From Nocardioides terrae (GTDB lineage: Bacteria > Actinomycetota > Actinomycetes > Propionibacteriales > Nocardioidaceae): 64,000 bases of DNA. Positions 50,612 to 63,823 of the stretch are shown piece after piece. How positions within the stretch are numbered: the first letter of the stretch is position 1; each line of letters starts with the position of its first letter. Made by a program: the position numbers and the translations under genes. Below the pieces are notes generated by a model. The model was not told where the DNA came from. It was given only the letters and a program-made list of their open reading frames with translations, and did no database searches. The stretch covers positions 62,001 through 126,000 of the forward strand of contig NZ_FOLB01000011.1 of assembly GCF_900112345.1 (NCBI RefSeq). The letters are read 5' to 3'.

Positions 50612-50623
50612 GAACAACTCGCG

Positions 50624-50745
50624 TGCTCTGGGGTCGGTGTAATTCCGAACCGGCGGTGACAGTCCGCGACCCGGTGACAGCCAGTCACCGGTTGACCAGG
50701 TGGAAATCCTGGACCGACGGTGAAAGTCCGGATGGGAAGCGCACG
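50624..50745 (+). promoter_or_regulatory. FMN riboswitch (RFN element)
   Basis: All conserved blocks of the RFN aptamer are readable in order: GGGGTCGGTGTAATTCCGAA, CCGGCGGTGACAGTCCGCGA, a variable arm GTGACAGCCAGTCAC, GGTTGACCAGGTGGAAATCC, GACCGACGGTGAAAGTCCGG and GATGGGA. It senses FMN and lies 100 bases before ribD, controlling the riboflavin operon. Confidence 0.96.
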
Positions 50746-50802
50746 CACCTGCTCCTCGCCGCAGCCCTCCCCACCGGAGGTCTCGGCCCGGCGCACGCTG
50801 TC

Positions 50803-60771: not shown

Positions 60772-61302
60772 GTGACCGACCCGCAGAGCGAGCAGCGCCG
60801 GCGTGACATCGCCGCGCCGGCGTACCCCGACGACACGGGAGCGGGCGACCAGCGCCTCGTCGACGTGCTGGGGCGCTACGCCCGCCGCCAGGCGACGTAC
60901 GCCGACGCGCTGGCCGTCCTGCTCGACAGCCGCCTGATCGTGCCGGTCGTCGCGGTGCTGGGCGAGGTCGACGAGCGCGGCGCCGACAAGACCGCCGACA
61001 TGGCGACCGTGCTGCTCACGGGCGCCGACGGCCGGCAGGCGCTGCTGACGTTCACCAGCCTCGAGACGATGGCCGCGTGGCAGGCCGACGCCCGCCCGGT
61101 CGGCGTACCCGCCGGCGACGCCGCGAAGGCCGCGCTCCAGGACGGGGCCGCCGCGCTGGTCCTGGACGTCGCCGGTCCGGTGACCTTCGTGGTCGAGGGC
61201 GAGGACCTGTACGGTCTCGGAGCGGGCTGGAACCTCGCCCAGGTGGGCGACGGCCGATCGGCCTGGATCCGCCCCGCTGGGGATTCGGCGTCGGCGGAAT
61301 GA
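60772..61302 (+). CDS. SseB-like N-terminal domain protein
   Basis: A 176-residue soluble protein containing the SseB N-terminal-type domain: QRLVDVLGRYARRQATYADALAVLLDSRLIVPVVAVLGE, then ADMATVLLTGADGRQALLTFTSLETMAAWQADARPVGVPAGDAAKAALQDGAAALVLDVAGPVTFVVEGEDL. Commonly found directly before infC in actinobacteria; function unknown. GTG 60772 is preceded by a weak -10 box GAGAAT (60760-60765). Confidence 0.82.
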   Translation: MTDPQSEQRRRDIAAPAYPDDTGAGDQRLVDVLGRYARRQATYADALAVLLDSRLIVPVVAVLGEVDERGADKTADMATVLLTGADGRQALLTFTSLETMAAWQADARPVGVPAGDAAKAALQDGAAALVLDVAGPVTFVVEGEDLYGLGAGWNLAQVGDGRSAWIRPAGDSASAE

Positions 61303-61307
61303 TCCGG

Positions 61308-61313
61308 TAGCCT
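61308..61313 (+). promoter_or_regulatory. Probable -10 box of the infC leader
   Basis: TAGCCT, placing the transcript start near 61320, six bases before the GNRA hairpin and 280 bases before infC. Confidence 0.45.
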
Positions 61314-61319
61314 CTCCTG

Positions 61320-61601
61320 TTGACCGATGTGGTGGCAACACCACATCTGAACAAGCGGAAGGCAGCCACTGCCCTCCCACCCGCATCGACCGTTGCACCA
61401 CCAGGTCGTCGGGTCCGGTCCCGGAGCAGTCCGGAGGCGTCGTACGACGTCCCCGGATCCTGCGCCGAGCCCCCACCCTGCGGTGGGGCACCTGACTGGC
61501 TTCCGCTTGGACAACAGCGGAAGCCTTTTTCGCTTTCCGGGCCGAAGTGCACGCGGTCCGGCACCGATGAGGCCTCCCACCACCGAACACATGGAGGACA
61601 C
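61320..61601 (+). ncRNA. Structured infC-rpmI-rplT leader RNA (putative attenuator)
   Basis: A 280-base gene-free region before infC. It contains a perfect 9-base hairpin GATGTGGTG/CACCACATC (61326-61334, 61339-61347) with a GCAA tetraloop, a second hairpin CCCCACC/GGTGGGG (61471-61477, 61482-61488), then a strong intrinsic terminator (61498-61530). Terminator-containing leaders that respond to ribosomal protein L20 are known for this operon in Firmicutes; here the ligand is unknown. Function is inferred from structure and position. Confidence 0.6.
61498..61530 (+). terminator. Intrinsic terminator inside the infC leader
   Basis: Perfect 10-base stem GGCTTCCGCT (61498-61507) and AGCGGAAGCC (61516-61525), eight-base loop, followed directly by TTTTT. 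It is the only classic T-tract terminator seen in this window and it lies 72 bases upstream of infC. Confidence 0.85.
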
Positions 61602-62285
61602 ATCAGCACCGAGCTTCGTATCAACGACCGGATCCGGGTACCCGAGGTCCGCCTCGTTGGTCCCAATGGAGAGACCGTCGGCATCGTGCCGACGGCCGAC
61701 GCACTGCGCCTGGCCCAGGAGGCCGACCTCGACCTCGTCGAGATCGCCCCGCAGGGCAAGCCCCCGGTCTGCAAGCTCATGGACTACGGGAAGTTCAAGT
61801 ACGAGAACGCCCAGAAGGCCCGTGAGGCCCGCCGGAACCAGACGAACGTCATCATCAAGGAGATGAAGCTTCGTCCCAAGATCGACTCGCACGACTACGA
61901 GACCAAGAAGGGTCACGTCGTGCGGTTCCTCAAGGCCGGCGACAAGGTCAAGATCACCATCATGTTCCGCGGTCGCGAGCAGCACCGCCCGGAGCTCGGC
62001 TTCCGCCTGCTGCAGAAGCTCGCCGAGGACGTCCAGGACCTCGGCTTCGTCGAGTCCTCGCCGAAGCAGGACGGCCGCAACATGGTGATGGTGCTCGGGC
62101 CGAACAAGAAGAAGGCCGACGCCAAGGTCGACCAGCAGGCGGCGAAGGAGACCAGGCTCGCCGAGCGCGAGGCCGAGGAGGCCCAGGAGCGCGCCGAGCG
62201 TGCCGCCGCTGCCGCCGCCGGCCCGGTCGCCGCCAAGAAGGAGCGCGGCCGCTCCGAGAACCTCGACCCCGAGATCGACGCCTGA
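61602..62285 (+). CDS. infC: Translation initiation factor IF-3, AUC start
   Basis: A 227-residue IF-3. [28 protein letters not shown] begins the N-terminal domain, with [16 protein letters not shown]-terminal domain [42 protein letters not shown] Lys/Glu/Ala-rich tail of about 45 residues follows. Alignment with actinobacterial IF-3 ([15 protein letters not shown]) puts the first residue at ATC 61602, four bases after GGAGG (61593-61597). No ATG, GTG or TTG is available in frame nearby. Non-AUG starts in infC are known and serve IF-3 autoregulation. Confidence 0.93.
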
Positions 62286-62293
62286 CGTTTTCC

Positions 62294-62364: not shown

Positions 62365-62559
62365 ATGCCGAAGAACAAGAGCCACTCCGGTGCCGGCAAG
62401 CGCTTCCGCGTGACCGGCTCGGGCAAGATCCTTCGCGAGAAGGCCGGCAAGCGCCACAACCTCGAGAAGAAGCCCTCCAAGGTGACTCGTCGCATGACCG
62501 GCACCGTCGAGGTTGCCAAGAACGACGTCGCGCGCGCCAAGAAGCTTCTCGGCCGCTGA
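62365..62559 (+). CDS. rpmI: 50S ribosomal protein L35
   Basis: A 64-residue, Lys/Arg-rich ribosomal protein: [20 protein letters not shown], then [16 protein letters not shown] and [18 protein letters not shown] 62365, with AAAGAGACGAAG upstream. Middle gene of the conserved infC-rpmI-rplT operon. Confidence 0.97.
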
Positions 62560-62618: not shown

Positions 62619-63002
62619 ATGGCACGCGTGAAGCGCGCAGTCAACGCGGCGAAGAAGCGTCGCGTCACCCTCGAGCGGGCGAGCGGCTATCGCGGTCAGC
62701 GTTCGCGTCTGTACCGCAAGGCCAAGGAGCAGGTCACCCACTCCCTGGTCTACGCCTACAACGACCGCCGCAAGAACAAGGGCAACTTCCGGCGCCTCTG
62801 GATCCAGCGGATCAACGCCGCCGCGCGTGCCGAGGGCCTGACCTACAACCGCTTCATCCAGGGTCTCAGCCTGGCCGGCATCGAGGTCGACCGGAAGATC
62901 CTGGCCGAGCTGGCCGTCAACGACGTCGCCTCGTTCAACGCGCTCGTCGCGCAGGCCAAGGCCGCTCTCCCCGAGGACGTCAACGCTCCGGCTTCCGCCT
63001 GA
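62619..63002 (+). CDS. rplT: 50S ribosomal protein L20
   Basis: A 127-residue ribosomal protein that binds 23S rRNA early in assembly. [83 protein letters not shown] is the usual core. ATG 62619 has AAAGGAG (62606-62612). In other bacteria L20 represses its own operon. Confidence 0.97.
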
Positions 63003-63031: not shown

Positions 63032-63823
63032 ATGACTCCTCTCGCCGCGTCCAACGCGCGACTGAAGGAGCTCAGGAAGCTGAGCCGCCGCTCGGAGCGA
63101 TCCGAGCGGCGGCTTTTCCTCGCCGACGGCCCCAAGGCCGTCGAGGGCGCGCTGGGCGTGCCTGACTGCGTGGTGGAGGTCTTCGCGACGCCCACTGCCG
63201 CCGAGCAGTACGCCGGCCTGCTGGCCGCGGCCCCGACCGTGACCCTGGTCGACGACCGGGCGATGGCCGGCCTCTCCGACTCGGTGACCCCGGCCGGCGT
63301 GGTCGCGCTCTGCCGCTTCCTGGAGCCTTCGCTGGTCGAGGAGGGCCGCCAGGCCCGTCCCGACACCACCCCGCGACTGGTCGCCGTCTGTGCCGACGTA
63401 CGCGACCCCGGGAACGCGGGCACCGTCATCCGCTGTGCCGACGCGGCCGGTGCCGACGCCGTCGTCCTGGCCGGCGACAGCGTCGACCGCTACAACCCCA
63501 AGACGATCCGCGCGAGCGTCGGCTCGGTCTTCCACCTCCCGGTCACGACCGAGCGGGACCCGTTCGCCGCCGTCGCGGCCGCGAGGGCCGCCGGGCTGAC
63601 CGTGCTCGCCGCCGACATGGACGGCGAGTCGCTCTTCGAGACCGACCTGACCGGCCCGACCGCGTGGATGTTCGGCAACGAGGCCTGGGGTCTGCCCGAC
63701 GCGCTGCGCGGCGCCGCGGACCGGGTCGTCAGCATCCCGATCTACGGCCGGGCCGAGAGCCTCAACCTCTCCACCGCCGCAGCGGTGTGCCTCTACGCCA
63801 GCGCCCGCGCGCAGCGGGCGTAG
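63032..63823 (+). CDS. TrmH-family (SpoU) RNA 2'-O-methyltransferase
   Basis: A 263-residue SPOUT methyltransferase, probably acting on 23S rRNA (as the gene after rplT usually does). N-terminal substrate-binding domain RRSERSERRLFLADGPKAVEGAL; knotted SAM-binding domain with VCADVRDPGNAGTVIRCADAAGAD, NPKTIRASVGSVFHLPV, and MFGNEAWGLPDALRGAADRVVSIPIYGRAESLNLSTAAAVCLYA (the three SpoU motifs). Residues about 100-114 (SLVEEGRQARPDTTP) are an extra segment matching a dispersed repeat (63331-63370). ATG 63032; an in-frame GTG at 63014 lies within the upstream repeat. Confidence 0.93.
   Translation: MTPLAASNARLKELRKLSRRSERSERRLFLADGPKAVEGALGVPDCVVEVFATPTAAEQYAGLLAAAPTVTLVDDRAMAGLSDSVTPAGVVALCRFLEPSLVEEGRQARPDTTPRLVAVCADVRDPGNAGTVIRCADAAGADAVVLAGDSVDRYNPKTIRASVGSVFHLPVTTERDPFAAVAAARAAGLTVLAADMDGESLFETDLTGPTAWMFGNEAWGLPDALRGAADRVVSIPIYGRAESLNLSTAAAVCLYASARAQRA
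63331..63370 (+). repeat. Dispersed repeat copy inside the TrmH gene
   Basis: GCTGGTCGAGGAGGGCCGCC ... CCCGACACCACC. Starts with the same GCTGGTCGAGGA as the copy before rpmI and ends with GACACCACC in place of GAGACCACC. It lies in frame between the two domains. Confidence 0.55.

Follow-up and report, generated by a model that had tools for sequence, protein, structure and literature searches.

A structured leader before infC in Nocardioides terrae and related actinobacteria is a probable L20-responsive transcription attenuator

The infC-rpmI-rplT operon of Nocardioides terrae encodes initiation factor IF3 and ribosomal proteins L35 and L20, and a stretch of DNA that encodes a structured RNA lies between it and the SseB-like gene that ends at 61302 on its 5′ side. 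The question raised by this locus is whether the RNA leader controls the operon, and which product of the operon it would sense. The locus lies near the end of the window, a stretch of 64,000 nucleotides of contig NZ_FOLB01000011.1 to which all coordinates refer. The original prediction, made from the sequence alone, described a 9-bp hairpin closed by GCAA, a 7-bp hairpin and a 10-bp terminator followed by TTTTT; it took premature termination to look deliberate and pointed to the L20- or IF3-related signals that attenuate the operon in Firmicutes. All three structures are present where it placed them (Table 1).

Table 1. Features of the infC leader and operon in the window.
Feature	Position	Strand	Basis and remarks
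-10 element TAGCCT of predicted leader promoter	61308-61313	+	predicted transcription start ~61320
P1 5′ strand GACCG	61322-61326	+	pairs with 61416-61420; covarying, helices 1 and 2, 84-85% of cells paired
P2, 9-bp stem with GCAA loop	61326-61347	+	direct reading; length and sequence variable in relatives
CAAGCGGAAG	61352-61361	+	invariant AAG of L20 core, P3 5′ strand and antiterminator strand
P3 hairpin GGA/UCC and GGCAG/CUGCC	61357-61377	+	helix 3, 99.7% of cells paired; seen in minimum-energy fold
P4, ACCCG/CGGGU and CGACC/GGUCG	61379-61414	+	helices 4 and 5; ACC/GGU end is the invariant part of the L20 core
P1 3′ strand CGGUC	61416-61420	+	covariation
7-bp hairpin CCCCACC/GGUGGGG	61471-61488	+	direct reading; linker between core and terminator, outside core model
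Intrinsic terminator, perfect 10-bp stem (61498-61525) and TTTTT (61526-61530)	61498-61530	+	direct reading, terminator scan
Shine-Dalgarno GGAGG of infC	61594-61598	+	sequence; also in relatives inspected
infC (IF3)	61602-62285	+	ATC start codon; Pfam IF3_N and IF3_C
rpmI (L35)	62365-62559	+	Pfam Ribosomal_L35p
rplT (L20), proposed regulator	62619-63002	+	Pfam Ribosomal_L20, E 1.4e-41
SpoU-type rRNA methylase gene	63032-63823		next after rplT

The region 61318-61610 folds better than all of 200 dinucleotide shuffles (z -4.6). In the leader structure P1 encloses P2, P3 and P4, and the same four helices appear in the minimum-energy fold of the window leader, which has one A.C mismatch in P3. 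A terminator scan found one terminator in 1 kb compared with 0.6 expected from shuffles, so the scan alone is no proof. When a terminator is defined by a stem with 7 or more pairs, 5 or more of them G-C, and a T-run of 5 or more, the one before infC is the only T-tract terminator of the window on either strand, as had been claimed; a T-run of 4 adds one more, a perfect 13-bp hairpin followed by TTTT (63084-63113, + strand) close to the start of the SpoU-type methylase gene, where the operon may end or be attenuated once more. As a separate observation, a short motif close to CGCTGGTCGAG recurs in the window (at 62293, 63009, 63330 and elsewhere; 29 matches with at most one mismatch, compared with 6.6 expected), and two of these matches are found at the joints of the infC-rpmI-rplT operon.

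Conservation of the leader was assessed in 185 infC upstream regions, from 56 of 57 infC-bearing genomes (N. terrae included) and 129 of 151 others, using a covariance model (R1) trained on 29 of the loci. At E <= 0.01, R1 matches 159 of the 185 loci, and 130 of the 156 on which it was not trained, many of them closely related to loci used for training; the 26 untrained upstream regions that complete the 156 gave no match at this threshold. Within the N. terrae genome the infC site has an E-value of 7e-15 and the next best site 2.5. Run with strict filters on 296 genomes of the phylum, R1 gave only 12 matches and is thus a poor whole-genome detector; ten of the 12 lie before infC. The two that do not, one presumably beside or in recA/recX-like genes (L069) and one in what is assumed to be a VWA-type gene (L070), were taken as false positives.

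Alignment of 99 of the 159 matched loci gave 94.3% of cells paired, a value flattered by the fitting of the alignment to the structure but well separated from the slid and shuffled controls: with partners slid by one column, 50-53% of the cells are still paired. Fifteen of the 19 pairs have changes on both sides, amounting to 135 such cells compared with 30 after shuffling and no more than 44 with partners slid. The original prediction had offered itself for refutation by a lack of covariation in relatives, and covariation was found. The sequence TANNNT, ending 4-10 nt before P1, is present in 70 of 98 aligned loci compared with 0.4% of background windows; with a -10 element just before P1, the RNA should begin with P1. 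The weight that had been placed on the GNRA tetraloop of P2 is not borne out, as P2 varies in length and sequence and only 6 of 99 predicted loops are GNRA; a role of this loop as a docking or protein site was ruled out by the same count.

More telling than the hairpins and the terminator noted at the outset are two elements that the first reading had missed, the conserved core (61352-61414) and an antiterminator. The strand at 61352-61361 is the exact complement of 61500-61509, which belongs to the left half of the terminator, so that the terminator left arm overlaps the target of the antiterminator. In 133 loci with clear terminators, the pairing of each antiterminator strand with its own partner averages -18.3 kcal/mol compared with -15.8 (sd 0.19) for permuted partners, kinship being uncorrected, and none of 2000 permutations was as good. 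Within a leader, an average of 2.7% of the remaining windows equal the antiterminator strand in pairing strength. Foreign terminator arms pair worse than the own arm in only 68% of cases on average, about a third pairing as well or better, because the arms are alike across species. Folding of the window leader favors the antiterminator over the core (-99.8 versus -90.1) when only the left arm has emerged, and the terminator over the antiterminator (-109.6 versus -103.5) when the right arm has emerged as well; termination would follow if something kept the core in place at the right time. The leader therefore has the two mutually exclusive pairings of an attenuator, kept in relatives (without correction for kinship).

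By scan, a T-tract terminator precedes infC in 133 of 180 loci, as in the window, and none was found in the remaining 47, which include two (L030 and L032) of the 43 loci of the same genus as the window. In these two, the right arm and the U-tract are gone and the left arm is kept just before the ribosome-binding site. Their Shine-Dalgarno sequences are predicted by folding to be partly to mostly paired, and addition of the AAG strand changed the pairing little. It may be conjectured that the output of the leader has moved from transcription to translation at these loci.

The identity of the ligand is suggested by the core, which consists in order of AAG, one base, a short hairpin, C and an ACC/GGU helix. 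The AAG (99 of 99 sequences), a G, CACC and GGU occupy columns that are identical in every sequence with a letter there (98 or 99), and seven of the eight columns of P3 keep their commonest base in 94-99 of 99. The L20_leader of Firmicutes in Rfam (RF00558) reads AAG-a-AGAAGC-ACCC-GCUUCU-C-gCCU...AGG, with the same succession of elements, from AAG through a single base, a hairpin and C to an xCC/GGx helix. An AA dimer and two G-C pairs constitute the published signature of L20 leaders, as described in a part of PMC7247131, and the actinobacterial core has the AA dimer and two consecutive G-C pairs, with the hairpin and the C between them.

A covariance model of the core only (R2) was built from 61 sequences, all of them actinobacterial, and run on 53 of 80 infC loci fetched from Bacillales; Rfam L20_leader was run on 23. 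With default filters, R2 matched 18 of the 53, every one of them on the + strand (707-875) and immediately before infC, with E-values of 3e-4 to 0.12, and with filters off it matched 33 of the other 35 at the same place (E 0.0035 to 1), for an overall 51 of 53. Five off-target matches appeared with filters off, none above 9.8 bits, and one of the 33 on-target matches scores 9.7 bits. Rfam L20_leader passes in all 23 loci on which it was run, and R2 begins exactly 5 nt after it in 23 of 23 compared. Taken singly, the R2 matches in Bacillales have weak E-values (3e-4 to 1) and the loci are mutually related, hence not independent; the evidence for a common core is the agreement of place and register. 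In a strict model-free search, the motif consisted of AAG, one base, a 4-bp stem followed immediately by CACC, and GGT nearby; it was found 90-320 nt before infC in 78 of the 80 Bacillales loci, and at eight other places in 199,172 bases on both strands.

Other classes of the phylum were represented by 25 loci, five of which are unplaced or have little upstream sequence. The strict motif precedes infC in 17 of 22 placed loci, with six matches elsewhere in 148,030 bases on both strands. R2 gave E-values of 0.0003, 0.006 and, third, 0.19 among the 25 loci, all before infC, together with weaker matches, and R1 gave 0.002 to 0.6 for four loci. Judging from these sequences, the complete actinobacterial architecture may be confined to the class, with the bare core reaching beyond it. 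In the loci concerned (L206-L229), the bare core, often in the form AAGAAGGGG...CCCCTCACC, is situated 88-207 nt before infC in the 17 of 22.

According to passages of PMC6097659 and PMC10931766, the B. subtilis leader is an established L20 site at which binding of L20 promotes the terminator. Because that leader shares its core with the actinobacterial one, in which the published signature is present, L20 is likely to be the ligand here too. The window leader and RF00558 have in common the operon, the position directly before infC-rpmI-rplT, the core (AAG-N-hairpin-C-ACC/GGU) and a rho-independent terminator downstream; the window leader differs in its stem sequences, its enclosing P1 and its variable P2. 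The antiterminator of the window leader uses the AAG-GGAG strand of the core itself. Despite the common core, the actinobacterial leader is not filed under RF00558, which exceeded the Rfam gathering cut-off in none of 40 genomes of the class and had no match in the N. terrae genome; as a control, it exceeded the cut-off in two of 14 well-known genomes. The Rfam scan of the window gave a single match, an FMN riboswitch (RF00050) located elsewhere (50619-50748, + strand, 94.6 bits), and two weak leader matches (E 2.8 and 3.3) that were taken as chance.

L20 binds helices 40 and 41 of 23S rRNA (a passage of PMC2672003). In E. coli 23S rRNA, C1150ACC1153 could, on the reading proposed here, pair with G1002GU1004 as the leader CACC pairs with GGU; CACC occurs four times in that rRNA, and R2 has no match at this pairing. 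A search of the N. terrae 23S rRNA for the pattern did not find it. That the core mimics the L20 site of 23S rRNA is therefore suggestive only. The E. coli rpmI-rplT operator, at which L20 represses by means of an mRNA mimic of its 23S site (PMC10931766, in part), differs from the window leader in being translational and in consisting of a pseudoknot and an irregular hairpin, and neither the E. coli operon nor E. coli 23S rRNA gave a significant R2 match (best E 0.27).

IF3 might be sensed instead of L20, either by binding to the leader or solely through the start codon of infC, in which case the leader would serve something else. infC is the first gene of the operon, and of 179 loci counted in relatives, 170 likewise start infC with ATC. 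In E. coli, an uncommon start codon on infC points to autocontrol by IF3, and the persistence of ATC indicates that such autocontrol may act beside the attenuator; this kind of control can coexist with an attenuator, but it does not explain one, and sensing of IF3 by the leader is at odds with the correspondence in register to the Bacillus L20 leader at every one of the 23 loci compared. It is improbable that IF3 is the product sensed in place of L20. infC and rplT were seen (by eye, without a formal count) to be near each other in the genome tables except where they fall on different contigs, so that gene separation did not help to tell L20 from IF3.

In Streptomyces, the leader already has a name. 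Rfam files Scr1601 (RF02830) as a small RNA gene, but the family matches the infC leader of two loci inferred to be from Streptomyces (L116, 186 bits, and L100, 171 bits; cut-off 100), spanning P1 to the terminator U-tract in both. On the strength of the same place and the same core, Scr1601 is identified with this leader. RF02830 exceeded its cut-off in four of 79 genomes of the class, all of one family, and in the window it had no match, falling below the gathering cut-off. The leader might then be thought a stand-alone small RNA that acts in trans, its terminator simply ending the gene, and PMC8388888 cites another study in which expression of scr1601 was confirmed in S. coelicolor. The antiterminator and the L20 core argue against a stand-alone gene, as do the ten of 12 R1 matches before infC in the phylum scan, and a trans-acting RNA is improbable here. 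The S. ambofaciens homolog of scr1601 was found in a UTR, and the authors discuss a possible misclassification (both in passages of PMC8388888). An attenuated leader would explain both the filing in Rfam and the location in a UTR.

A small-molecule riboswitch, which could also present a compact core of several helices with invariant unpaired bases, is very unlikely, the invariant bases being those of the Bacillus L20 leader core and the downstream genes being the L20 operon. Least credible of all is ribosome-mediated attenuation through a short frame in P2 (ATG TGG TGG CAA CAC CAC ATC TGA, 61327-61350) that would sense translation, for although the frame exists in this species it is a consequence of the palindrome, P2 differs in sequence among the listed relatives, most of which lack an ATG at that place, and what is conserved is the RNA structure; the frame, encoding MWWQHHI, was ruled out for its lack of conservation in those relatives.

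Taken as a whole, the leader probably binds L20 and attenuates its own infC-rpmI-rplT operon, much as in Bacillus. Transcription would start near 61320, and the nascent RNA would fold into P1-P4. When L20 is scarce, the strand at 61352-61361 would pair with the emerging left arm of the terminator to form the antiterminator, and polymerase would reach infC. When L20 exceeds free 23S rRNA, it would hold the core, keeping the strand in P3 and freeing the terminator to form; transcription would then stop near 61530, so that infC-rpmI-rplT is repressed and only a leader RNA of about 210 nt is made (the RNA filed as Scr1601 in Streptomyces). Of the original prediction, deliberate premature termination with L20 as a candidate thus has good computational support in covariation, a conserved antiterminator and a Bacillus-like core, while its emphasis on the GNRA loop falls away.

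The infC 5′ UTR of Mycobacterium tuberculosis is long (326 nt) and abundant, exceeding the coding region 2.6-fold in exponential phase and 4.9-fold in stationary phase (PMC3207917, in part), although the excess could result from decay instead of termination. The authors likened it in general terms to L20 control in B. subtilis and aligned it with the infA UTR; the passages of that article on the infC UTR propose no L20 site, fold or antiterminator. No actinobacterial L20 leader, and no data on L20 binding, footprints or termination in actinobacteria, were found in the openly licensed literature. What is probably new is an actinobacterial L20 leader with an antiterminator of its own, which also accounts for a small RNA on file.

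Chances are even that the L20-binding module was inherited as a single RNA element that predates the divergence of Bacillota and Actinomycetota and has stayed before infC, each lineage having surrounded it with a switch of its own; the alternative to descent is that the 23S site may have been copied convergently in both phyla. Ribosomal-protein leaders are considered to be mostly limited to one phylum, one of the 20 in the relevant part of PMC7247131 occurring in more than one, and the B. subtilis L20 RNA has a narrow distribution, within Firmicutes, according to a passage of PMC6097659. Here the L20 core precedes infC both in Bacillales and across much of the phylum of N. terrae. Almost no information on autogenous control is available for this bacterial group, according to a passage of PMC8470358. 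If the reading presented here is true, an Rfam small RNA would be explained as a terminated leader, and Streptomyces, mycobacteria and their relatives would gain a defined autogenous control of an essential operon.
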